A DNA stretch of 22,095 nt from a virus. The notes below the pieces were generated by a model. That model was given only the letters and a program-made list of their open reading frames with translations, searched no databases and was not told the DNA's origin. Both the position numbers and the translations under genes were made by a program. The stretch spans positions 1 to 22,095 of IMG/VR virus record IMGVR_UViG_3300031599_000748. One strand, 5' to 3'. Below, in pieces: positions 1 through 14,087 of this stretch; position 1 is the first letter of the stretch; each line of letters starts with the position of its first letter.

Positions 1-323
1 GTTTGCCTACAAAGGAACGCAGGTATTTGTAATACATCTACACAATCATTAAAGTAAGTTGTAATTATTTCAATCTGTTCAATGTCATGTACATCTGTTA
101 GTGTCTTGACGCCGTATACTTCTTTAATTAATTTAAAGTCATTTAGAGTATTAGCAAGTCCTACACCTCGCTTATTACCTAAGCTAGATCTATTTGCTTT
201 ATCAAAACTTGCTTTAAAAATATATTCAACACCATATTTGTCGCATACTTCTTTGCATCGTTGTGCGATATGTGATGACTGACTTAATGACTCATGCTGG
301 CATGGTCCTGCTATAATTCTCAT
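1..323 (-). CDS. kdsA: 3-deoxy-D-manno-octulosonate 8-phosphate synthase (KdsA), N-terminal part, runs off the window
   Basis: KdsA condenses phosphoenolpyruvate with arabinose 5-phosphate to Kdo-8-phosphate, the first committed step to Kdo. About 107 residues are visible and the C-terminal part lies beyond position 1. Hallmarks seen: IIAGPC at residues 3-8, followed by H-E-S, then FKASFDKANRSS, then a TDVHD stretch and LQIPAFLCRQ at the window edge. The short N-terminus and Cys8 in AGPC match the Aquifex-type, metal-dependent KdsA class, where this Cys is a metal ligand; the E. coli-type enzyme has Asn there. The ATG at 323 overlaps the stop of the upstream small ORF as ATGA, so the two are probably translationally coupled. 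It is the last visible gene of the folE unit. Identity is secure from the motifs. Completeness and the other metal ligands cannot be judged. Confidence 0.93.
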   Translation of the reverse strand, partial: MRIIAGPCQHESLSQSSHIAQRCKEVCDKYGVEYIFKASFDKANRSSLGNKRGVGLANTLNDFKLIKEVYGVKTLTDVHDIEQIEIITTYFNDCVDVLQIPAFLCRQ

Positions 324-3647: not shown

Positions 3648-5111
3648 TTAATTCCAGTCGATTTTTTCTATTGTAAATGGGTACTCAGCTTCTTTGTAAA
3701 ATTTCTTACGTTGAGTTAAGTGTCGCTTCGCGTACTTGCAGGTTGATGTCAAGTCCCAAATTTGTACGAAGTCTTTATCTTTTGCCTTACGAACGCCACG
3801 TCCGATTGATTGTATTACTCTTACGAAAGACTTACCTGGCTCAAGTAACACTAAGTTGAAGATACGAGGAATGTTAAGGCCAACTGCCGCTACACCGTAT
3901 GTTGCAATAATAACTTCATTGGTGCCTTCCTTGATTGTATCGTAAGTTTCTTTTCTATCTTTTACTTTTACACTTCCGCTAACAAAGGTACTGCCTGGCA
4001 TTAGTTCTGCAAGTGTTTGCCCTGCACTAATTCTATCTACTAGTATTAGCGTGTTGCCTGTTTGTGATACTTGTGTTAACATCTTAGCAATGTAAGCTAA
4101 TCGGGTTTCATTTGATGTCAAGTACTTTAGCTCTGCCTGGTAATCAGAATGTGCTACTGTGTCAATTAGCTGACATACATTTACGTGACATGCTGATAGT
4201 ACACCCTTGTCTTGTAATTCTTTTGCAGTAATATTTCCAATTACTGGACCCAAACTTGCATGTATACTTTCAAACTCGAACGCTTCTTTAGGTACTGTGC
4301 CAGTTAGTCCCCAGCGTATCGGAGCATTGCGTAAGTTTTGTGTAAGTAAGTTTTTAAGTACTTCAGCTTTTGCTTGGTGTACTTCGTCGATAATAATTGT
4401 GCTTACACCGCTAAGAAACTCTGTAAGACTCAACTTTGCTGTTCCGTCTTTTGTTTTCTTATCTAAAATGTTTAATGACTGCCATGTACAGATAGTATGT
4501 GTACAGCCTAGCATCTTCCTATCGCCGAAGTACACCCCAACATCGAGCCCACAGTTAATATAGTCTTCTTCTGTTTGTTCTACTAACGACTTGTTAGGAA
4601 CAATGACTAGACTACGACCGTAAGGCTCAGTTATGTGTGATAGTGTTGCTGTAGTAATTGTTTTACCTGCACCAGTAGCAATCTGTTGCAAGCTCTGTGG
4701 ATTGTTAAGAAAGTTATTAATAGCTTCTACTTGATAGTCACGCAAGATAATTTCTGTGCCTGCTACAGGATGTCCTTCGGGCCAACACACACCTTGGTCT
4801 GCCCAATAGCGTTCTGTGACCGGAGTAAACTTTAAATCAATTGGATTACGATTGTCTTCAATTGCTGTAATTTCTACATTGTACTTTTGTAATACTTTTT
4901 GAATAGTTCCTAAGTGATTAACATAACCACTGCCGCCTAAACCAAAGAAAGCAACTTTACCATCCCAGCGTCCTAACTTGTACTGCGGCATATACTTTGC
5001 ATACGGCACTTCAAACTTGAGTGCCTGAGATAGCTTGCGCCGCATGTCAACGTCTAGACCTTCTAACTTAATGTTTACTTCGTCTTGTATAATTAGTTTA
5101 CATGTTGCCAT
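3648..5111 (-). CDS. uvsW: UvsW recombination helicase/ATPase
   Basis: A 487-residue superfamily 2 helicase, close to T4 UvsW in length. UvsW unwinds branched DNA and R-loops, drives branch migration and ends origin-dependent replication in T4. Seen in order: an N-terminal DNA-binding domain (1-~115) with LGRWDGKVAFF; Q-motif-like LRDYQ at 123-127; Walker A ATGAGKT at 145-151; DEVH box at 242-245; LTGT motif III at 269-272; motif IV/V region ATYGVAAVGLNIP at 403-415; and QSIGRGVRK motif VI at 434-442. All catalytic motifs are intact. The start ATG overlaps the preceding stop as TAATG. A candidate promoter inside the upstream gene (5297-5325) may add expression. Confidence 0.96.
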   Translation of the reverse strand: MATCKLIIQDEVNIKLEGLDVDMRRKLSQALKFEVPYAKYMPQYKLGRWDGKVAFFGLGGSGYVNHLGTIQKVLQKYNVEITAIEDNRNPIDLKFTPVTERYWADQGVCWPEGHPVAGTEIILRDYQVEAINNFLNNPQSLQQIATGAGKTITTATLSHITEPYGRSLVIVPNKSLVEQTEEDYINCGLDVGVYFGDRKMLGCTHTICTWQSLNILDKKTKDGTAKLSLTEFLSGVSTIIIDEVHQAKAEVLKNLLTQNLRNAPIRWGLTGTVPKEAFEFESIHASLGPVIGNITAKELQDKGVLSACHVNVCQLIDTVAHSDYQAELKYLTSNETRLAYIAKMLTQVSQTGNTLILVDRISAGQTLAELMPGSTFVSGSVKVKDRKETYDTIKEGTNEVIIATYGVAAVGLNIPRIFNLVLLEPGKSFVRVIQSIGRGVRKAKDKDFVQIWDLTSTCKYAKRHLTQRKKFYKEAEYPFTIEKIDWN

Positions 5112-6346
5112 TAAAGTTTCTCTATGTTTACGTTAAAGCCCTTAGCCATCGGAGTAACATCTGTGTCATAATGAATAACTAAATCTTTTGCAGATGCCAC
5201 ACAGTCAACTCTAGAGTTCCTAGTACTACCCATATACAGAGTAGTACTATTATTCCAGTCTGATGTTAGTACAGGTTTTGGATACTTTGTATTATTAATA
5301 TACACTATCTTAGTGGTTTTGTCAACCTTATTATTAATACCATTATTTTTAACGTATTTGTTAAATGGATGATTACTGTCCGCATTATTATCTACTCTAA
5401 ACATAACTGATATTTCTGAATTGTTAATAAAGCCTTGCACTGCTGAGTGTGTACTAATTAATTGATTTAATATTTCCTCATCGTTTGCTGATAATACTAC
5501 TAACAATGGAAATCTATTCAATTCTAATAGACCTGCATACACTGCATTTAATGACCAATTGTTGCTGTTTACAAAAACAATGTTAGCTGTTCTTCGTATT
5601 ATCTTTTGTGTAAGTGGAGATAATACATTTATTGAATTGTCTAATTCAGGTTGATCAAAATATTCTAATCCGTACTGTAACCCTTTATCTTTAAACCTAT
5701 ATAACGGAGTATCTTTAGGATCTCCTATGTCTGAAATAATATAGTCTATTGTCTTACTTGGTAAATTCTTTAGTTCCACATTGTATACTCCCGGAATGTA
5801 GTCTTGCGGACTGTTAACTATAACCGCAATCTTTTCAAAGGCTTCTAATAATTGAGGTTCAATTAAAAAAGTTCCCCGCTCTTTTACATCCTTAACGACA
5901 TCGTGTATCGTTACTTCGTTCAATTCAAAGTGATGTAAGTGTGTGCCTTTATCATGTGAGTAATGTTTCTTGTGTTTCCAAGCTAACTTTTCCATTAAGC
6001 CAATATACTTCTTACTAAATGGAAACCTAATACCGATACATTGTTTGCCGTTGTGTTCTACAACTTTAACCCAATGACTCCTGTCAATCTGACGTAGAGG
6101 CATCCGCAATGTATCTAATGCAATATAAAAATTATCAATAGAAGCGAACTGGTCAGAATACGATGTAGTTAATTTAAGTTTAACTACATTGTATTGTCTG
6201 TCAGTAAATGCTGTTCCGTTGAACACTTGTCTAGCAATGCTAGATAAGATAGTGTAATCTTCAGATTGTACCTTAAACGGTACGTCACTAGTGTCTACTA
6301 AACCCACTAGTGCCTCAAGGCAGTCTTCGATTGTTTTTATATTCAT
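5111..6346 (-). CDS. Hypothetical 411-residue protein co-transcribed with uvsW
   Basis: A soluble protein with a mixed alpha/beta look. The N-terminal half (1-~165) is basic and His-rich (WKHKKHYSHDKGTHLHHF around residues 124-142). The C-terminal half (~245-411) contains regularly spaced beta strands such as ANIVFVNSNNW, PLLVVLSAND and ISVMFRVDN, then a run rich in Asn/Ser, then DLVIHYDTDV. No Walker or nuclease motif is visible. It is the first gene after the promoter at 6353-6381 and overlaps uvsW by one base (TAATG), so the two products are made together and may act together in recombination. No RBS precedes its ATG, and the predicted transcript start falls on or next to that ATG. I do not recognise a named family. 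Confidence 0.8.
   Translation of the reverse strand: MNIKTIEDCLEALVGLVDTSDVPFKVQSEDYTILSSIARQVFNGTAFTDRQYNVVKLKLTTSYSDQFASIDNFYIALDTLRMPLRQIDRSHWVKVVEHNGKQCIGIRFPFSKKYIGLMEKLAWKHKKHYSHDKGTHLHHFELNEVTIHDVVKDVKERGTFLIEPQLLEAFEKIAVIVNSPQDYIPGVYNVELKNLPSKTIDYIISDIGDPKDTPLYRFKDKGLQYGLEYFDQPELDNSINVLSPLTQKIIRRTANIVFVNSNNWSLNAVYAGLLELNRFPLLVVLSANDEEILNQLISTHSAVQGFINNSEISVMFRVDNNADSNHPFNKYVKNNGINNKVDKTTKIVYINNTKYPKPVLTSDWNNSTTLYMGSTRNSRVDCVASAKDLVIHYDTDVTPMAKGFNVNIEKL
5221..5249 (-). repeat. 9-bp perfect inverted repeat within the 411-residue gene
   Basis: TAGTACTAC (5221-5229) and GTAGTACTA (5241-5249) are exact complements around an 11-base loop, near the 3' end of the gene upstream of uvsW and about 110 bases before the uvsW start. 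No U-run follows on either strand. It could be an operator-like dyad or an RNA hairpin, or simply a by-product of Ser-Thr codons. Confidence 0.4.
5297..5325 (-). promoter_or_regulatory. Candidate intragenic sigma-70-type promoter upstream of uvsW
   Basis: A TTGACA (5320-5325) and a TATATT (5297-5302) are spaced by 17 bases on the minus strand, one mismatch from consensus overall. The transcript would start near 5290 and lead uvsW by about 180 bases. Its location inside a coding region and the AT-rich background make a chance match possible. Confidence 0.4.
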
Positions 6347-6352
6347 ACAACT

Positions 6353-6381
6353 ATTATAACGTATTATAGCTTAGAAGTCAA
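6353..6381 (-). promoter_or_regulatory. Near-consensus sigma-70-type promoter for the uvsW unit
   Basis: TTGACT (6376-6381) and TATAAT (6353-6358) are separated by 17 bases on the minus strand, one mismatch in twelve. A second TATAAT lies at 6363-6368 but lacks a -35 box at the right distance. The promoter overlaps the 3' end of the glycosyltransferase gene ending at 6364. The predicted start is about 6346, the first base of the next gene's ATG, so the mRNA may be leaderless. Confidence 0.75.
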
Positions 6382-7227
6382 GAGGTTAAGCGGAAGTCCT
6401 TGTGATATTTCTTCAAGTGTATATTCAGTATGTGCATAGTCGTTGAGCCATTGTGTTCGATCGGGCATTAATGGGTTCTCTATATCGTGCATGAAGTCTA
6501 TGTCGTTAGCAACGTCATACGCTAACGAGCTAGTACCTACAAACGCTGGAATGCCGTTAATAATACTATGTATACCCGGGTTGCTAGAGTAGCTTATAGT
6601 AGCATGTACGTTGTCGAAGCCCATATCAAAATCGTCATATGTTGCCATTATTTGCTTAGGTACTTGTCGGTATACGTGTCGAAGACCTTTTTCAATTTCT
6701 GGCAACATACATCTTGGGTGCGGTCTAAAGATAATAGGGCGTTCACTGTGTGTTCGAATAGTATCGATAGTGTCTAATAGCCATTGGCTCATACTAGGCA
6801 TTTCTGCCCACTGTAAACTCTTATCGTGTTGTCCGCATATTAGAATAAAATCCCCGTTGGATCTCCAAGGCTTACAAACCAGTCCCAACTGATCAGCGCG
6901 AGTCCCATCATTACCTTGCTCACTAAAGTAACCGTCTCTGTTAATTCCATTTAATCCTACTTTCCATGTTGTGCCACGGTTGATACCACCAACTTCTAAT
7001 ACTATGGTAGGTTTCTTTTGGTCCCATACTGCTTTATTTCTTGCCATTCGGCCATTAAATAGTACACTCCAAATAACATTAACATCGGCGCTATCATCAT
7101 TATAGATAACAGTATGACCGTTATCCACAAGGCTGTTTGCAAAAGCAGTAAACACAGGCTTGCTATTAAGTGCGCCATATTCTGTCCAAAGACTAAACTT
7201 CATTCCAGTACGCTTCAGGTCTAGCAT
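6364..7227 (-). CDS. GT-B-like putative glycosyltransferase, paralog A (capsule/KpsS-like motifs)
   Basis: A 287-residue protein, one of four related proteins in this island. Shared motifs: a core strand ending in RPHPR (HP at residues 170-171), ISYSSNPGIHSIINGIPAF (211-229), and a conserved tail IENPLMPDRTQWLNDYAH followed by T-L-E-E. The HP motif plus the Ser/Asn-rich loop before a G-I/V-P motif recall GT-B nucleotide-sugar sites, especially KpsS/KpsC-type capsule Kdo transferases. The acceptor and donor are unknown. Start: the ATG at 7227 has AAAGGA eight bases upstream but overlaps the previous gene by 35 bases; Met9 (ATG at 7203) begins the first beta strand and is a good alternative. 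It is last in the glycan island. Confidence 0.7.
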   Translation of the reverse strand: MLDLKRTGMKFSLWTEYGALNSKPVFTAFANSLVDNGHTVIYNDDSADVNVIWSVLFNGRMARNKAVWDQKKPTIVLEVGGINRGTTWKVGLNGINRDGYFSEQGNDGTRADQLGLVCKPWRSNGDFILICGQHDKSLQWAEMPSMSQWLLDTIDTIRTHSERPIIFRPHPRCMLPEIEKGLRHVYRQVPKQIMATYDDFDMGFDNVHATISYSSNPGIHSIINGIPAFVGTSSLAYDVANDIDFMHDIENPLMPDRTQWLNDYAHTEYTLEEISQGLPLNLLTSKL

Positions 7228-8035
7228 TCATTAAGTCCTTTAGTTGACTCTTGCGTTTCTGTTTGCGCCCGCCTTTCATGTGATCAATCCATCGGCCTAG
7301 TTCTGTGTTAATAAGAGGATGACCGCCGCCGCCAGTCTTTGCTGTCTTGACATAAATGCCTGCGCTGTAATCAAACACATGTGCATCTTCAAAACGCATC
7401 CTGTTTAATATTTTGCCAAACACATAACTGTCATGCCATTCATCTAATGTAAATATACCGTTGTCTGCATCTACATACATGCGTTCAAACTCTACAAGAA
7501 ACTCTTTACACTTAGCAGTGTTTAGATTCATTCCGTAAAAGCCGCACTCTGGCCAAGTTTGTGATCCAGTGCCTCTGCCTACAAATGTCATCCAACTTTC
7601 GTTAGGTAACTGTCGTTCAAAGTCTTCTCTACTCCAGGGACTATGTACGTATGTATCTGCATCAACCCATACTACCCAATCCTCAGATCTTTCGCATGCA
7701 TCAAATACAGCATATACTTTATTAGCAAACCTTACAGCATCCCACTTGAATGCTTTATGATGATCACGTGGCCGTTTATCAATAATTTCTTGCGGTGGCC
7801 TTCCGTTTGCTTTAGGAACAGCTCCCCATCTTGACTTAAATGCATTTAACTTAGGCAGTGCTGTTTTAGCATCTAATACAATAATGTTATCTGAATTTAC
7901 AATAGGATTACAGTCTTCTGCATACACTAACAGTTTAATTGACGGGTCTACATTTTTAGCCCAGCTATCTAAAAACCTTTGTCCATAAACCATTAAGCCT
8001 TCGTAATGAAATGTTGTAACTGCTGTAATTTGCAT
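7193..8035 (-). CDS. GT-A-fold putative glycosyltransferase (first of two related copies)
   Basis: A 280-residue soluble protein with a nucleotide-sugar transferase look. It has an N-terminal strand MQITAVTTFHYEG, a DxD metal/nucleotide motif WVDADTYVHSP at 123-133, ECGFYGMNL at 163-171, and HDSYVF at 201-206. The C-terminal tail is basic (GGRKQKRKS). It shares KAFKW, W-x-DAD, ECG, NL and HDS-x-VF in the same order with the protein encoded at 12754-13632, so the two are homologs. The RBS is AAGGA before ATG 8035. It lies between two GT-B-like paralogs, with overlap to the downstream one. The substrate is unknown. Confidence 0.75.
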   Translation of the reverse strand: MQITAVTTFHYEGLMVYGQRFLDSWAKNVDPSIKLLVYAEDCNPIVNSDNIIVLDAKTALPKLNAFKSRWGAVPKANGRPPQEIIDKRPRDHHKAFKWDAVRFANKVYAVFDACERSEDWVVWVDADTYVHSPWSREDFERQLPNESWMTFVGRGTGSQTWPECGFYGMNLNTAKCKEFLVEFERMYVDADNGIFTLDEWHDSYVFGKILNRMRFEDAHVFDYSAGIYVKTAKTGGGGHPLINTELGRWIDHMKGGRKQKRKSQLKDLMNARPEAYWNEV

Positions 8036-8045
8036 GTCTGTTCCT

Positions 8046-8972
8046 TTATATATATTGTTTTAGGTGCTGCCAAGCTTCACCTGTTTTAAGTTCGTCAAGT
8101 GTCCAATGACACTGTGCTAGTTTTTGTAACCAGCGTTCTCTATCAAATTCTTTTGGATTCTCTATATCAGCTAATGAGTGATGCGTAACATCACTAGCTT
8201 GACTTCTAGTTGGATCAAGTACAAATGTTGGTACTCCTTCAATAGCACTTGCTACTGCCGGACTGCTATTATAGTTAACTACTGCATATGCTGTTGCAAA
8301 GTCTTCCATTATACTATCAGTATAACTAATTCTTACTTTTGGAATTCGGTAACCAGCTAACATTTTAATGTGGCCGCCAATCTTTTTATCACCTGGATGA
8401 AATCGTATTACTATAGTACGATCGCTGTGCGCACGTATTTGTCCTATAGTTTGTACAAGCCATTTAACAACACCTTGTCCGTCCATGCTCCAGCCACCGT
8501 CACGCTGGCAACATACTAATATATCCTTACCGTTGTTAAGTTTCCAATCCTTAACTTGTATATTCATGTCTGCTTTTAGCTTATCCCAACGCTTAGGATT
8601 TGGATTGTCGTAACAGTACTCTCCTGTTGTAGGGAATATGCCATCGTAACTATATCTTAAATAGCCGCTGGCATTTGTTCTATCAGCATACAAAAACAAA
8701 TTTGCATCAACAATTAAGCAACGTTTGCCTCTATTAATTTGATTATCATACACTGCTTTGCGTAACAGCAAGTGCTTAGTTTGTTTGCTATCTGAATGTA
8801 CAAAGCCTTGTAACACAGCAACATCAGTATTCATAGGATGCCATCCGGTAACAACTGCTCCCTTGTCTCCCACTTTGTTAACCCCTTCAATGAAGTTGTT
8901 AATGATTGCAGGCTTCTCTGGATTTCTATTTCCCGGAGGTATTCCCATTAAGTATGATGCTACAGTTATCAT
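8046..8972 (-). CDS. GT-B-like putative glycosyltransferase, paralog B
   Basis: A 308-residue member of the four-copy family. Seen: VKDWKLNNGKDILVCCQRDGG (residues ~140-160), matching paralog D in position and spacing; TIVIRFHPGDKK with HP at 192-193; AVVNYNSSPAVASAIEGVPTF at 230-250; and the tail IENPKEFDRERWLQKLAQCHWTLDE. Probable two-domain GT-B fold, with the C-terminal domain holding the donor site. Its ATG overlaps the stop of paralog C by four bases (ATGA), which indicates coupled translation of neighbouring copies. The RBS is weak. The KpsS/KpsC-like comparison is by motif only. Confidence 0.7.
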   Translation of the reverse strand: MITVASYLMGIPPGNRNPEKPAIINNFIEGVNKVGDKGAVVTGWHPMNTDVAVLQGFVHSDSKQTKHLLLRKAVYDNQINRGKRCLIVDANLFLYADRTNASGYLRYSYDGIFPTTGEYCYDNPNPKRWDKLKADMNIQVKDWKLNNGKDILVCCQRDGGWSMDGQGVVKWLVQTIGQIRAHSDRTIVIRFHPGDKKIGGHIKMLAGYRIPKVRISYTDSIMEDFATAYAVVNYNSSPAVASAIEGVPTFVLDPTRSQASDVTHHSLADIENPKEFDRERWLQKLAQCHWTLDELKTGEAWQHLKQYI

Positions 8973-9802
8973 GATAAGTTATACTTCTCTATTAGACGAT
9001 AGGCATTACCGTTTGCCATTTCATTTGTAGTATATTGACAGTATGCAACCCAATGTTGCCACTTCTCGACTAAAGTTGTATCCGAATACAACGGTGTTTC
9101 TATCTTGGTTAGGTCTTTTTCACAAAGCATGTCAGCAATGTTCGGCGCACTAACAAATGCAGGCACACCATAACCTATGGCTTCAGTTGCCGCTATACTA
9201 TTATATGTAACAACTGCGAAAATATTATCGTCATCAAGTTGATTGTATATTGATCCGTTACCAATCCGCTCTCTTCTTAACCCTTTATCTCTAATAATTA
9301 TAGGTCGCTTAGTATGTTTTTTAATTGTTGCTATTGTAGTGTCCAGCCATTCCTGTCTATTTATACCATAAAACTTACAAGGCTTATCACTAGGCGTTAC
9401 TAGTAATATAGGGCCACCGTCTTTCTTCCAACCAGGAAATGTTAAGTATTGTAATCCAGGAGTTGACTCAACATATGTGCGCCATCTATCATCAGGCACG
9501 TTTACAAAGTTACTATGTTGCATACCATTTTTAACTACTCTATGATATATTTTACGCTTTTGTCTATTGCCTATGTATCCAGTATCAATATAGTAAAAGT
9601 CTCTTCCGGTTGCTTCGCATTCTCTAACAGCTTTTCTACTGGCCATACTTCTAATAGCAACTGGCAAATCCAATGAATGATTTTTTAACTCTTTATAACT
9701 AGTAACATACTTTGCATCAGTACCTTCTTGCCATGCCTTAATTATACCATCGTCTGGGTCAATTGCTAGTTGTGGGGGTATCACTGTAGTTTCATCTAAC
9801 AT
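8969..9802 (-). CDS. GT-B-like putative glycosyltransferase, paralog C (divergent, HP motif lost)
   Basis: A 277-residue copy aligned with A, B and D through PDDRWR (104-109), ILLVTPSDK (132-140), RPIIIR (166-171), AVVTYNSIAATEAIGYGVPAF (196-216) and the tail KWQHWVAYCQYTTNE. Where the other three have R-x-HP, this copy reads R-D-K-G (171-174), and the segment after it is shorter. If the HP histidine is catalytic or donor-binding, this copy is altered or inactive. Start choice: ATG 9802 overlaps the upstream stop as TAATG, the junction style used throughout this window; an in-frame ATG at 9841 has no RBS and would overlap 40 bases. Confidence 0.68.
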   Translation of the reverse strand: MLDETTVIPPQLAIDPDDGIIKAWQEGTDAKYVTSYKELKNHSLDLPVAIRSMASRKAVRECEATGRDFYYIDTGYIGNRQKRKIYHRVVKNGMQHSNFVNVPDDRWRTYVESTPGLQYLTFPGWKKDGGPILLVTPSDKPCKFYGINRQEWLDTTIATIKKHTKRPIIIRDKGLRRERIGNGSIYNQLDDDNIFAVVTYNSIAATEAIGYGVPAFVSAPNIADMLCEKDLTKIETPLYSDTTLVEKWQHWVAYCQYTTNEMANGNAYRLIEKYNLS

Positions 9803-10476
9803 TATTTGTCGTCCATCATATTTTGTAGTTCTTGTTTCCATTCTGTATGAAACTCGCAGTTTCTATAATTTTCAAACCACGGTCCGCCTTCTGTGTAGTG
9901 TAAAGCCTTTGGGCTTCCGTCTTTGTAATGACCAACTAAGAAATTCCATTCGTAATTTAAATCTCCAATCTCTTCGTCAGTTAACCAACTAAAGCGATGT
10001 AAGTATGCTCCGTTAATTTCTGGTTCGTTAACTAGGTCCATAGTTAATTTTGCATTGCTAGGATGCGCACAGTTAAACAACATTACACTTGACCAGTTCT
10101 TACGTGGATAAACTGTTTGCACTTGTCCATCCATCTTAATACCTTCTTTAGGTGCATAGTCGTGCTTAACACACATTACTGCATACTTGTCATCTGCTTG
10201 ATCAAATAGTTCTTTAACGTCATCTAAAAAGATAATGTCACTGTCACAAAACAATGCCCATCCACTAAAGTTAGTAAGTTCAGGTATAAGGAAGCGAGTA
10301 AACGTAAACTCTGTACTTGCAAGTTTATCTACAGGACGAGTATACCATCCTGCCTCTCTAAGTTTAGATTGTATTAAGGGTTTTACTTCTACGTCTTTAC
10401 TACGAGATTCAAGACTGTGCTTGCATACTTGATATGCAATGTCTTCTCGTGTGTCATAACCTACAAATACTTTCAT
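9802..10476 (-). CDS. GT8-like glycosyltransferase
   Basis: A 224-residue GT-A enzyme. It starts MKVFVGYDTRED, as many phage and bacterial GT8-type proteins do. TEFTFTRFLIPEL at 55-67 is followed by LFCDSDIIFLDD, where the DSD (78-80) is the metal-binding DxD. NWSSVMLFNC at 127-136 and LHYTEGGPWFENYR at 192-205 supply the C-terminal His and acceptor-side residues typical of the fold. It is shorter than GT8 enzymes of bacterial LPS synthesis. It is linked to the upstream nucleotidyltransferase-cupin gene by an ATGA overlap. Transfer of a hexose from a nucleotide sugar is the usual family activity; the acceptor is unknown. Confidence 0.85.
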   Translation of the reverse strand: MKVFVGYDTREDIAYQVCKHSLESRSKDVEVKPLIQSKLREAGWYTRPVDKLASTEFTFTRFLIPELTNFSGWALFCDSDIIFLDDVKELFDQADDKYAVMCVKHDYAPKEGIKMDGQVQTVYPRKNWSSVMLFNCAHPSNAKLTMDLVNEPEINGAYLHRFSWLTDEEIGDLNYEWNFLVGHYKDGSPKALHYTEGGPWFENYRNCEFHTEWKQELQNMMDDK

Positions 10477-11234
10477 GTATCTTTTCTTTCTATGTCTTCT
10501 TCAATGCAATTAGTACCGTATTGTATTTCAACTAATTTTAATGGAACATTAGTTTCGTTTGCTAATTGATGCCACATGCCTAATGGTATGTGCAATGACT
10601 GGTGTTGTTGGAAAGTGCCGTAGATATCTACATCTGTACTAGCATCCAACGTATACACTGTTGCAGTACCTTCTGCAATAAACCAATGCTCAGCACGTTC
10701 TGCATGACGTTGCATACTTAATATTTTACCAGGTTCTATAATAAGTTCTTTTACTTTACTGTGTTCATCATATTCGTGTATCACTCTATAATACCCCCAT
10801 ACTCTTTCAGTCTTAGGCGCTTTCCACTCTTCTAGTATCCAGCTCGAACTGTTAGCTTTGTTTTCTCCACCGACACCAAATACAAACTCTACACCTTCAA
10901 CTGCCATCTCAGGGATGTTTTCAGATGTTCGGTCGCCGCCATTAGCAAATATTATTTTATCGTTAGGATAGTGTGCTTTAACTTGTTTTATAAAATTTAT
11001 AGCAGAATTATCATCGTCCATAAATGTAAAAACTTCGTCTACCATTTGTAAGTTGTTTACAATACATAGGCGTTCATTCCAAGGCATAAATGCCCTGCCC
11101 TTCTTACGCTCAAGCCATTCGTCTGAATTTAGGCCAACGATTAATCGATCGCCTAATTTCTTTGCTTCTTTAAAATAGGCAATATGCCCGCTGTGTAGTG
11201 GGTCAAATCCACCTGTGACTAATACTACGTTCAT
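10473..11234 (-). CDS. Nucleotidyltransferase-cupin fusion (sugar-nucleotide enzyme)
   Basis: A 253-residue two-domain protein. Residues 1-~135 form a cytidylyltransferase-like domain with TGGFDPLHSGHI (HxGH at 14-17), an ISTSS-like region at NANSSSW, and NGGDR at 98-102, as in the adenylyltransferase half of HldE/RfaE and related enzymes that activate a sugar phosphate with ATP or CTP. Residues ~150-253 form a cupin with RHAERAEHW at 176-184, the hallmark of the type II phosphomannose isomerase C-terminal domain. This pairs sugar activation with possible isomerisation. Start: ATG 11234 begins the first strand; the open frame extends upstream to 11321 but would overlap the previous gene by 67 bases. 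No good RBS is seen, so coupling is likely. Confidence 0.85.
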   Translation of the reverse strand: MNVVLVTGGFDPLHSGHIAYFKEAKKLGDRLIVGLNSDEWLERKKGRAFMPWNERLCIVNNLQMVDEVFTFMDDDNSAINFIKQVKAHYPNDKIIFANGGDRTSENIPEMAVEGVEFVFGVGGENKANSSSWILEEWKAPKTERVWGYYRVIHEYDEHSKVKELIIEPGKILSMQRHAERAEHWFIAEGTATVYTLDASTDVDIYGTFQQHQSLHIPLGMWHQLANETNVPLKLVEIQYGTNCIEEDIERKDT

Positions 11235-11254
11235 GCTAATACTTATACTAGCAC

Positions 11255-12196
11255 TTAATGGTCTTGCAATAGATTTGGATACAATGGTTTTAAATGTTCC
11301 CAAGGTAACCCTGCAATGCATTCATCTTCACGCCACTGACAGTACGATAAGTTGTTTAACCATTGCTGTCTATCAAACGTTTGTGGAGATTCAAGAGTAG
11401 CTAAATCTTTATTACTGCAATCCCATGCCATGCTACTAGGGCACATACTAAATGTAGGGATTCCTTCCATAATACTTTCAGTAAGTGCGTTACTATTAAA
11501 TCCTACAACGGCCCATGCTCTATCAAAGTCAGTTTGTAATGCAGTTGCTCCAGACAAGAATCCTTCAGCTGAAACGTTTTCGCTTATTTCAATTCCAGGT
11601 AAGTTCAGGTCAGCAAGCATTTTTAATTGGTCGTTTCTTCTACTAGGATGCGGTCTTACTAATATTTTTCTATCAGTATGTTTTTTAATTTCGTTTATAG
11701 TAAACTCTAAAAACCCTTTGTACGAACCATGCTTTGTTAATAGATTTTTTAAGCTACTATCGCCCGGACGTTGTAATGTTAATAATACATACTCGCCCTT
11801 TGTGCGCCAATCTTTAACTTCAAGTTGTTGATCAGCTTTTACTTGCTTCCATCTATCGTCAGGGCAATTAAGATTGTTATAATATCCTTCGTCTCTAAAA
11901 TAACTATACCAACTGAATCTATGATAAGACTTGCCAGGCTTGCCAGGATCAGGATGTGGCATGTTACGTCTAAACACAGCACTCTCAACACATATCCAAG
12001 GCTTATTACTATCTTCTATAATGTTATAAAACTTACCTAGTTTTCTTTCTTTCTTATTTTGTTTAATATTTGCTTGCACAAGTACGTCTGCACTATTAAT
12101 AGTATCTAAGTCTGATGCAGGTACTACGATCCAACTTGAAGGAATTGGATGCCACGACCAAAGCAATTCTTTAATTGCAACAACTTTAATTGTCAT
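11255..12196 (-). CDS. GT-B-like putative glycosyltransferase, paralog D
   Basis: The largest copy of the family, 313 residues. It has an N-terminal domain with several aromatic stretches (YHRFSWYSYFRDEGYY at 91-106), then CPDDRWKQVKAD (111-122) and EYVLLTLQRPGDSS, then RKILVRPHPSRRND with HP at 183-184, and AVVGFNSNALTESIMEGIPTF at 229-249. The tail LESPQTFDRQQWLNNLSYCQWREDE matches the other copies. It is first of the four in transcription order. It overlaps the methyltransferase upstream by 11 bases. The intact HP and G-I-P motifs suggest an active enzyme. The donor and acceptor are unknown; KpsS/KpsC-like chemistry is a motif-based suggestion. Confidence 0.7.
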   Translation of the reverse strand: MTIKVVAIKELLWSWHPIPSSWIVVPASDLDTINSADVLVQANIKQNKKERKLGKFYNIIEDSNKPWICVESAVFRRNMPHPDPGKPGKSYHRFSWYSYFRDEGYYNNLNCPDDRWKQVKADQQLEVKDWRTKGEYVLLTLQRPGDSSLKNLLTKHGSYKGFLEFTINEIKKHTDRKILVRPHPSRRNDQLKMLADLNLPGIEISENVSAEGFLSGATALQTDFDRAWAVVGFNSNALTESIMEGIPTFSMCPSSMAWDCSNKDLATLESPQTFDRQQWLNNLSYCQWREDECIAGLPWEHLKPLYPNLLQDH

Positions 12197-12761
12197 TAAT
12201 AAACACTAAGCCTCGATTTTTTACAAATGCCTTGCGGCCTTTTTTATGGTACTTACAATTAAGTGTTGATTCTTTTCTTGTTAACTTAGTAAGGGCTTCG
12301 TCATAACGAAATTTGTATGATGCCATAGTTTGTATCCAGTATGCTTCGTCTTGCTCGTTAACATGATGATGTCCTCCCCAACCTACTGGGGCATAAGTTA
12401 TTACCATTACTTTACATGCTTGGAAAGAAGTAATATACTCTGGTATATATTTTTCATATACGTGTTCAACAAACTCAACACTCCAACCTAAATCATAAGT
12501 TTTTTCTAATGTTACAGGACCTTTTGTGAAATCATGTATAATAAACTTACTATTGTCATATCGATCAATTGTATGATCACCGTCGATACCTAATGCTTCC
12601 ATTCTGTATTCTTTTTCAGCGACTTCTACCATGCCCCCTAATCCGCAACCAACATCTAAGAATGACTTAGGATTTAATACTTTGTGTAACGCACTTAATG
12701 CACCTAAGTCTAAGTTTGCTACATTGTTGTGTCCACCTAAGTGATCATCTAGTTCAGTCAT
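12186..12761 (-). CDS. Class I SAM-dependent methyltransferase of the glycan island
   Basis: A 191-residue protein with motif I SFLDVGCGLGG at 33-43, an acidic residue after the second strand in GID (Asp60), and SVEFVEHV at 94-101 in the post-motif region. An HHH run (131-133) and a basic C-terminus (KKGRKAFVKNRG) follow. It resembles methyltransferase 23-type enzymes that occur in sugar and polysaccharide clusters. Start choice: ATG 12761 has GGAG six bases upstream and overlaps the previous stop by 8 bases; an upstream in-frame ATG at 12773 has no RBS. Its place among glycosyltransferases suggests O-methylation of a sugar. It is not similar enough to the 1261-1830 enzyme to be a recent duplicate. 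Confidence 0.83.
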   Translation of the reverse strand: MTELDDHLGGHNNVANLDLGALSALHKVLNPKSFLDVGCGLGGMVEVAEKEYRMEALGIDGDHTIDRYDNSKFIIHDFTKGPVTLEKTYDLGWSVEFVEHVYEKYIPEYITSFQACKVMVITYAPVGWGGHHHVNEQDEAYWIQTMASYKFRYDEALTKLTRKESTLNCKYHKKGRKAFVKNRGLVFINDN

Positions 12762-13632
12762 GTGTATCTCCATTAGTTGACGCTGAATGGTTACGAGTAG
12801 CGTCAGCTATTGGAATTGTTTCTGCTAACATCTCTCCCATTAATTTCTTACGGTCTTCTCTAGCGGCTTCTAATGCAAATCGTTTTAGAAACTTTTGTTG
12901 AATACGTTCTTTAGCATTGCCCTTAGTATGTACCATAACTTGATTTATGCCACTGTTGTTAAAAGGACTTTTAGCATTAATAGGATTTGGATTTAAATCT
13001 AAAAATGGTTCTTGGTCTTCATACGACAATCGTAACTGAAAGAACACCCAACTGTCATGTGTTTCACGCAAGTGATCCAAGCCAGTTAAATATTGATTTT
13101 CAAAATTATTAATAAATTCTCTAGCAATCGGGTTGCTAAGATTATAACCTACTAACCCACACTCGTCGTACTCACCCGGACGACCTAAGTATGTGATTGC
13201 TTTATGATCCGGAAAAAGTTTATCTAAAAATTCCGGTGTCATGGGGCTGTGCATTAATACATCAGCATCTAGCCACACTAGCCAATTGTCTTGTTGCACT
13301 TTAGCTTCTGCAAATATTGCAAATGTTTTGTGAGCAAACTTAATTCCTCTCCATTTAAATGCTTTAGTACCACCTTCTTGCTTCATGCCAATGTGACCAT
13401 TATAGTGTGGATTGTCTTTGTGGCGCTCTTTAAATGCAACTAAATCTGGTGATGCGTTATATAACTCTTTATAAATTATGCGTGGGTGTACTGCTCCGAC
13501 ATCAATATTATCTTCACTGTATACTACAATGTCTACATTATTAGGAAGATGTTCTGCCCAACTTTGTATGTTTACTTTTGATGTTGAGTTCCAATATTCG
13601 TTGTTAAGACTTGTTACAAATGTGTATTTCAT
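12754..13632 (-). CDS. GT-A-fold putative glycosyltransferase (second related copy)
   Basis: A 292-residue homolog of the 7193-8035 product. It has an N-terminal strand MKYTFVTSLN; GGTKAFKWRGIKFAHK at 87-102; WLDADVLMHSP with DAD at 122-124; DECGLVGYNL at 156-165; and THDSWVFFQL at 191-200. The C-terminal 60 residues are charged and likely helical (RKKLMGEMLAE), unlike the basic tail of the other copy. Its ATG overlaps the uvsY-like stop as TAATG, so the glycan island begins translationally coupled to the recombination genes. The DxD motif predicts a metal-dependent nucleotide-sugar transferase. The substrate is unknown. Confidence 0.75.
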   Translation of the reverse strand: MKYTFVTSLNNEYWNSTSKVNIQSWAEHLPNNVDIVVYSEDNIDVGAVHPRIIYKELYNASPDLVAFKERHKDNPHYNGHIGMKQEGGTKAFKWRGIKFAHKTFAIFAEAKVQQDNWLVWLDADVLMHSPMTPEFLDKLFPDHKAITYLGRPGEYDECGLVGYNLSNPIAREFINNFENQYLTGLDHLRETHDSWVFFQLRLSYEDQEPFLDLNPNPINAKSPFNNSGINQVMVHTKGNAKERIQQKFLKRFALEAAREDRKKLMGEMLAETIPIADATRNHSASTNGDTHD

Positions 13633-14087
13633 TATACTGATGCATCCTCCATTCCGGCTACTCTTAGTTTTACAATATTAGTTATCTGCCATTGCTTCTG
13701 GTCGAGACCTTTTAAGACTGCTAGCCATTTGTTACGCATTAACGCAAATTCATTAATAATCTTTTCCATATCAACTACATCTGTTTCACCGTCTACGTAT
13801 TTTTCAACGTCACGACTTGACAATGCCCTTTGATAATTTTCAAGATATTTCTTAAAAAATGAGCTACGCAACCTACGTAGCTCAATATTTAAATAGTGAA
13901 GGATTGCTTCTACTTCTTGTAACTGATGAAAGCGATTTTCAACAATGCCTGGCATAGCCGAAGCAGAGCGTTCTACATTACCAGTTAGTTTAACCTCTTG
14001 TCGTGCTTCATGCAATTCCTTTTCAAAAAATGCAACAGCATCAGGTATCTTACTGATGTCTCTACTTACTTCACTATACCAACCCAT
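13632..14087 (-). CDS. uvsY: UvsY-like recombination mediator
   Basis: A 151-residue, charged, helical protein, slightly longer than T4 UvsY (137 residues). UvsY loads UvsX onto gp32-coated single-stranded DNA. The C-terminal block, with AVLKGLDQKQWQITNIVKLR at about residues 122-141, lines up by eye with the C-terminal helix region of T4 UvsY, and the middle (VEAILHYLNIELRRLR) is a predicted amphipathic helix. Position two genes after uvsX supports the call. The ATG follows the preceding stop directly, with GGAAGA as RBS. A terminator-like hairpin lies inside the coding region (13854-13884). Similarity is weak enough that the assignment is partly contextual. Confidence 0.68.
   Translation of the reverse strand: MGWYSEVSRDISKIPDAVAFFEKELHEARQEVKLTGNVERSASAMPGIVENRFHQLQEVEAILHYLNIELRRLRSSFFKKYLENYQRALSSRDVEKYVDGETDVVDMEKIINEFALMRNKWLAVLKGLDQKQWQITNIVKLRVAGMEDASV
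13854..13884 (-). terminator. Intrinsic-terminator-like hairpin inside the uvsY-like gene
   Basis: On the transcribed strand TGAGCTACG (from 13884) and CGTAGCTCA (ending at 13860) form a perfect 9-bp stem with a 7-base loop, immediately followed by six T residues (13859-13854). This is the textbook layout of a Rho-independent terminator, yet it lies within the open frame, coding E-L-R-R-L-R-S-S-F-F-K. Ribosomes would keep it unfolded; without translation it could end transcription before the glycan island. Confidence 0.55.

Follow-up and report, generated by a model that had tools for sequence, protein, structure and literature searches.

The IMG/VR record IMGVR_UViG_3300031599_000748, analysed here in its entirety as one window of 22,095 bases, carries between its uvsY and uvsW genes an island of nine genes, four of which—paralogs A, B, C and D—encode a single family of glycosyltransferase-like proteins. 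By predicted structure and active-site motifs, these paralogs belong to the retaining beta-Kdo transferases (Kdo, 3-deoxy-D-manno-oct-2-ulosonic acid), in which they form a new and strongly diverged branch; the group has the fold of glycosyltransferase (GT) families GT99, GT107 and GT140. We read the island as a phage glycan-assembly cassette that includes this branch and whose product would most likely be attached to virion proteins, and we give this reading roughly even odds (a probability of about 0.5). The computed parts of the case are the paralogy, the old clades, the predicted fold, the retention of motifs, the kdsA and kdsB genes, and the placement of homologs in virion operons of other phages.

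The fold was predicted for two of the copies, B (8046..8972, minus strand) and D (11255..12196, minus strand), whose AlphaFold (AF2) models have mean confidence scores (pLDDT) of 97 and 93; A (6364..7227, minus strand) and C (8969..9841, minus strand) are assigned to it by homology. In Foldseek searches of the PDB, the top 23 matches of B (best E 5.6e-7) and the top 28 of D (best E 2.4e-9) are all chains of KpsC, WbbB or KrkA, with KpsC the best match of D. The next fold classes begin at E values of 2.6e-5 (B) and 4.8e-5 (D), and epimerases, TagF and a polysialyltransferase follow the Kdo transferases with weaker scores; both predicted models thus have the fold of the retaining beta-Kdo transferase superfamily. 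An earlier note on this DNA, made from the letters alone, had proposed a GT-B-like fold with motifs recalling KpsS and KpsC. The fold held up, with KpsC, WbbB and KrkA as nearest relatives, and so did the resemblance at the level of structure; membership at the level of sequence is marginal, PF05159 (Capsule_synth) being touched by 5 of 94 family members (best E 0.0018) and by none of the four window proteins. The same Pfam scan of the 94 members gave weak touches of DUF6716, Pfam and PHROGs scans of the four window paralogs returned no significant or usable match, and a PDB sequence search with the family profile found chance tubulin matches only. In a structural search of BFVD, four Tetraselmis virus 1 proteins are among the best viral matches, two of them named Capsule polysaccharide biosynthesis protein.

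The active site gives the second line of evidence. In beta-Kdo transferases the Asp of a QxxxD motif acts as nucleophile and a Glu as base, and cytidine monophosphate (CMP) is bound by (K/R)xHP together with a Ser loop (PMC10148158, PMC12887879); RxHP with the Ser phosphate loop forms a CMP-binding signature (PMC12887879). Paralog D is the canonical copy, with E71, Q142 and D146 (in QRPGD), R181, H183 and P184 (in RPHP), and S235. A has RPHP and a Glu at the base position, and its QHDKS puts Ser at the nucleophile position; B has RFHP and an Asp at the base position, with Gly in place of the nucleophile (QRDGG). C, the most diverged copy, reads PSDKP and RDKG—the Gln, the nucleophile Asp and the His are lost, and the Arg, the Ser and a base-position Asp are kept.

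These patterns recur clade by clade in a motif table of 116 family representatives. An acid stands at the base position in all 116 (Glu in A and D, Asp in B and C), as does the Arg of RxHP; the His is present in all of A, all of D, 41 of the 42 B representatives and none of C, where RxK is found in 30 of 30. The Gln and the nucleophile Asp occur in 20 of 20 clade-D representatives, and the nucleophile position holds Ser in A, Gly in B and Pro, Val or Ile in C, with few exceptions. Clade A therefore keeps E, Q, R, H, P and S, clade B keeps the same set with D as its acid, and clade C keeps only R, S and the base-position Asp; QxxxD is found in D and absent from A, B and C, and (K/R)xHP is found in A, B and D. 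Across 22 sequences—clade D aligned with members from a podovirus, prophages and extra copies—Q, D, R, H, P and E are invariant from E71 to P184. In the B and D models, the active-site residues lie at or just past strand ends, as expected of a GT-B-like site. The shared motifs that had been described beforehand are there: only C lacks HP, with K-G in its place, and the descriptions of the N-S loop, G-I/V-P-x-F and the W/G tail hold. The idea that the four copies add successive sugars of one chain disagrees with the motifs if those sugars are Kdo, the full beta-Kdo-transferase active site being found in clade D only. A fifth type of copy, with QLxGD and RTHP and hence a full canonical active site, occurs beside normal B copies at two loci (L202:3088-4140, L206:3227-4237).

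That the four copies belong to one family is shown by all-against-all blastp (E 1e-12 to 1e-40); a search with one of the paralogs recovers the other three in the same record. On a tree of the 116 representatives, the deep groups coincide with A, B, C and D: four label changes are needed, compared with a minimum of three and about 62 for shuffled labels. The old duplications suggested from the four sequences are thus supported by their environmental homologs, and since the four old clades are common to diverse marine T4-like contigs, the cassette is ancient and maintained.

The island itself is a compact unit. Nine overlapping open reading frames fill 6364-13632 on the minus strand, flanked upstream by uvsY (13632..14087, minus strand) and downstream by X (5111..6346, minus strand), a 411-residue protein coupled to uvsW (3648-5111); this is the layout first described. 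Gaps between genes run from -67 to +17 bases, so that the island reads as one translationally coupled unit. Beside the paralogs stand two GT-A enzymes, Ga (7193..8035, minus strand; DAD, a DxD motif) and Gb (12754..13632, minus strand), which are homologous as had been supposed (30% identity, E 8e-35) and whose best PDB sequence match, the PBCV-1 enzyme 2p6w, is not significant (E 0.46). Pfam upholds the three other assignments, with differing force: G8 (9802..10476, minus strand; DSD motif) is a GT8-like GT-A enzyme matching PF01501 at E 4e-5, just under the family cut-off; NT (10473..11321, minus strand) fuses an HldE-C/TagD-like nucleotidyltransferase (PF01467, E 4e-14) to a mannose-6-phosphate-isomerase-type cupin (PF01050, E 1e-23), and its product is likely an activated sugar; and the gene at 12186..12773 (minus strand) is an S-adenosylmethionine-dependent methyltransferase with a weak PF13489 match (E 7e-4). 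We considered X as a member of the island and rejected it, grouping it with uvsW because two contigs that lack the island keep uvsY-X-uvsW; X has no significant Pfam or PHROG match. Elsewhere in the window, folE (GTP cyclohydrolase I; 519-1205) and a Vut_1 (YhhQ-type) transporter gene (2151-2762) lie near each other, a pairing suggestive of deazaguanine or folate metabolism.

Relatives of the family are encoded in hundreds of viral-contig stretches, and the near-identical contig G001 and its relatives G002-G004 have four copies each. The conserved gene order is NT-G8-(C)-B-Ga-A-X-uvsW-Y-cupin-(kdsA-kdsB). In a query-enriched set of 94 distinct uvsY-uvsW loci, A, B and Ga occur together in 87, C in 52 and D in 46; the core comprises A, B, NT, G8 and one GT-A enzyme (Ga), and C and D are optional, as are Gb and the methyltransferase that accompany D. 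The stretch from uvsY to NT is variable, with sulfotransferase, GT25, GSCFA and methyltransferase genes coming and going. In a sample drawn with uvsW instead, family members are present at 31 of 33 well-covered loci, and at two loci uvsY-X-uvsW has nothing between its genes, which shows that the island is a module in its own right. Three contigs from metagenome-assembled genomes labelled Neomarinimicrobiota and Euryarchaeota (L226, L227, L228) share this T4-like gene order and are probably viral sequence binned with cellular genomes; a T4-like order is also found on contigs of 357, 383 and 262 kb (L270, L297, L300) that are unusually long for the group and may be chimeras.

Genes for a likely sugar donor lie close by. 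The kdsA gene (Kdo-8-phosphate synthase) that had been seen in the window is real: it occupies 3..323 (minus strand; 107 residues, cut by the window edge), and complete relatives score above the KDO8P-synthase cut-off. The next gene in relatives is kdsB (CMP-Kdo synthetase), which exceeds the cut-off of PF02348 and matches the NCBIfam kdsB models below theirs, and a PF02348 gene is present in 8 of 12 records. Together, kdsA and kdsB can make CMP-Kdo. Contig G001 adds HldE-, HldD- and GmhB-like genes, a cupin, a class-I aldolase and, by eye, a putative 2-oxoglutarate-Fe oxygenase (L038:4278-8884, contig 60001-80000), and this group of genes adjoins a 1,426-residue, repeat-rich, tail-fibre-like protein; HldD-like genes occur in 7 of 10 relatives. 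Two phage contigs of another layout (L317, L314) carry a kdsA-kdsB pair, an HldE-C-like gene and a distant uvsX-like gene, and have no paralog family.

The contexts of homologs in other phages point to the virion. In an HK97-type prophage (L341, G132:C8 110000-127000), a D-type gene has capsid/connector genes on one side and, on the other, genes for head completion (PF05521), HK97-gp10 and tail completion; it is part of an insert that also holds an MptE-like gene and a methyltransferase. The same layout, again with PF05521, occurs on one more contig, a short one, and plasmids yielded no homolog of this prophage-type copy. The family and a G8 homolog come after tail genes in the Caulobacter phages CcrColossus and CcrSC. 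Podovirus ct7QV12 groups a family member with a Ga homolog and a methyltransferase, with one gene between this group and terL. Two family copies, with Gb and G8 homologs, are found in Pelagibacter phage Mosig; G8 homologs adjoin the paralog family in both Caulobacter phages and Mosig. Since homologs lie in capsid-tail operons of unrelated phages, we favour a glycan on the virion.

From these elements, a plausible pathway may be drawn; the donor, the linkage and its stereochemistry, the order of addition and the acceptor are what we infer. Host and phage KdsA and KdsB would supply CMP-Kdo or a related CMP-ulosonic acid, and further activated sugars would come from NT and, in relatives, from the ADP-heptose pathway. 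Transfer of the ulosonic acid by D would be retaining and pass through an adduct on Asp146, with Glu71 acting as base and RxHP binding CMP. A and B, which keep the CMP site and the base and lack the nucleophile, may work by direct (inverting) displacement or may have changed donor, and C would be altered further still. The GT-A enzymes, the GT8-like enzyme and the methyltransferase would then add and decorate the remaining residues of a glycan assembled in the cytoplasm and most likely placed on virion proteins. The fullest form of this scheme—one viral family in which a retaining D and inverting, nucleophile-less A and B are all CMP-ulosonic-acid transferases that jointly build a Kdo-containing oligosaccharide on virion proteins—we consider speculative and, as a whole, rather unlikely.

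Several points weigh against a Kdo-based virion cassette. The structural matches have TM-scores of only about 0.4-0.6 at 9-14% identity, so that the identity of the donor could have shifted. The invariant base-position acid lies at the end of an N-domain strand, and its equivalence to KrkA Glu102 is a putative one, drawn from position. D, the sole canonical copy, is optional, and the nucleophile-less A and B form the core. We had expected a tight association of kdsA with the family and had to reject it: the family is missing from G015, which has kdsAB, and kdsA from G019 and G020, which have the family; within 10 kb of uvsW, kdsA is present at 16 of 31 island loci. Since many relatives are incomplete contigs, absences among them carry little weight. 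Finally, the marine T4-like island sits in a recombination operon rather than a tail operon, and a late-promoter search there found no excess.

Some of these points would also fit a family that shares the fold and has another donor. The copies might use other nucleotide sugars, such as the product of NT or ADP-heptose, with kdsAB serving another purpose, and either acceptor would be compatible. The loose linkage of kdsA, the loss of the nucleophile from three of four copies and the place of NT within the conserved core all speak for this possibility, which we take seriously while doubting it: A, B and D keep the CMP-binding signature, RxHP with the Ser phosphate loop (PMC12887879), and clade D retains the Gln that binds the Kdo carboxylate along with the nucleophile. 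With linkage so loose, the case for the donor rests on structure rather than on linkage alone, and on the predicted models CMP-Kdo is the likely donor.

The acceptor raises a second alternative, in which the cassette adds Kdo, heptose or other residues to nascent lipid A-core (or a capsule linker) at the cytoplasmic face, changing the receptor and blocking superinfection. Characterised members of the fold family act on lipopolysaccharide (LPS) or capsule, and KdsA, KdsB and the ADP-heptose enzymes are enzymes of the LPS inner core. No Wzx-type flippase (PF01943) was found in 10 relatives, nor a credible polytopic exporter in three of those 10, a point in which the island differs from a Wzx/Wzy-type O-antigen locus. 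The LPS core needs no phage flippase, and lipid A-core can be modified without a phage exporter, which counts for the host surface and against the virion. So does the published reading of pelagimyophage glycosyltransferases (PMC7029224). Against it stand the homologs within a prophage capsid-tail operon and beside Caulobacter phage tail genes, the structural matches in an algal giant virus whose host is LPS-free, and the lack of any membrane-associated glycan gene in the marine island; the Tetraselmis theca contains 2-keto sugar acids including 5-O-methyl-Kdo (PMC10762512). The host LPS core is a possible acceptor, and the full host-surface account, receptor change included, we hold to be on the unlikely side.

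The earlier note had named virion, host surface or DNA as the site of a phage-made oligosaccharide; with the virion favoured and the host surface possible, DNA is the member of the list that fares badly. Enzymes that decorate modified phage bases and so evade nucleases, as in T4 and RB69, would suit an island coupled to uvsX, uvsY and uvsW in a window that also holds folE and a Vut_1 (YhhQ-type) gene, and T4-like relatives do glycosylate or arabinosylate hydroxymethylcytosine, according to two reports (PMC6024577, PMC12838424). Yet the thymidylate-synthase-family dCMP or dUMP hydroxymethylase (PF00303) on which T4-type glucosylation depends was found in none of 10 relatives, some of them incomplete, with the control detected in 9 of 14 genomes, which leaves no known route to hydroxymethyl bases; homologs in other phages lie in virion operons, and the nearest folds act on glycans. 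DNA is thus an unlikely acceptor, and nuclease evasion by this cassette seems very improbable. Weakest of all, and barely credible, is a random cargo of LPS genes without conserved role: the stuffer-DNA idea was raised earlier for cyanophages (PMC3037559) and the stretch from uvsY to NT is variable, but A, B and Ga hold the same place in 87 of the 94 query-enriched loci, family members are found at 31 of the 33 uvsW-drawn loci, and active-site columns are conserved within clades.

Glycosylation of phage virions and host surfaces has been little characterised, and T4-like phages abound in the sea; recognisable CMP-ulosonic-acid chemistry in a conserved cassette opens the way to concrete, cheap tests. 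In the four clades, nature has also run an experiment on what becomes of a retaining transferase that works through a nucleophile once this residue is lost—should the retaining/inverting virion scheme be true, it would amount to a Kdo glycoprotein system of phages and to a natural series of double-displacement loss. Because the window paralogs have no significant PHROGs or Pfam match, many phage genes now called hypothetical could gain an annotation. The suggestion of a new system stands in part: pelagimyophages and cyanophages were already known to carry LPS-type genes (PMC7029224, PMC3037559), and the novelty lies in assigning the family to the beta-Kdo transferase fold, in the cassette with its four clades and in the loss of the nucleophile clade by clade. 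No report of the paralog family or of a phage Kdo transferase turned up in a limited search of open papers.

Among known systems, the KpsC (GT107) modules are closest in predicted fold, being the best PDB match of both B and D, and share QxxxD and HP with copy D; the phage copies differ in having a single module rather than two, no capsule operon and 9-14% identity, and the nucleophile is missing from three of them (A, B and C). WbbB (GT99) and KrkA (GT140) share the fold class, QxxxD and HP, and the acidic base of the N-domain may resemble KrkA Glu102, whereas the present family is phage-borne, has four paralogs and is not fused to other GT modules. Inverting CMP-sialyltransferases such as the GT38 polysialyltransferase resemble A and B in combining a (K/R)xHP CMP motif and an acidic residue with the absence of a nucleophile; in the structural search with D, GT38 (5wcn) comes a long way behind the Kdo transferases, at rank 42 (E 5.6e-4), and it is absent from the top 50 matches listed for B. 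Chlorovirus and mycobacteriophage virion glycosylation likewise relies on virus-borne glycosyltransferases for structural proteins, with different transferase families; in the present phages the glycoprotein is a prediction. The LPS/O-chain clusters of pelagimyophages and cyanophages (P-SSM2, S-SSM7) are also found in marine T4-like phages and contain GT8, rfaE-type and other sugar genes; what sets the present island apart is a fixed uvsY-uvsW cassette with a Kdo-transferase-like family that PHROGs and Pfam scans of the window proteins leave unnamed.

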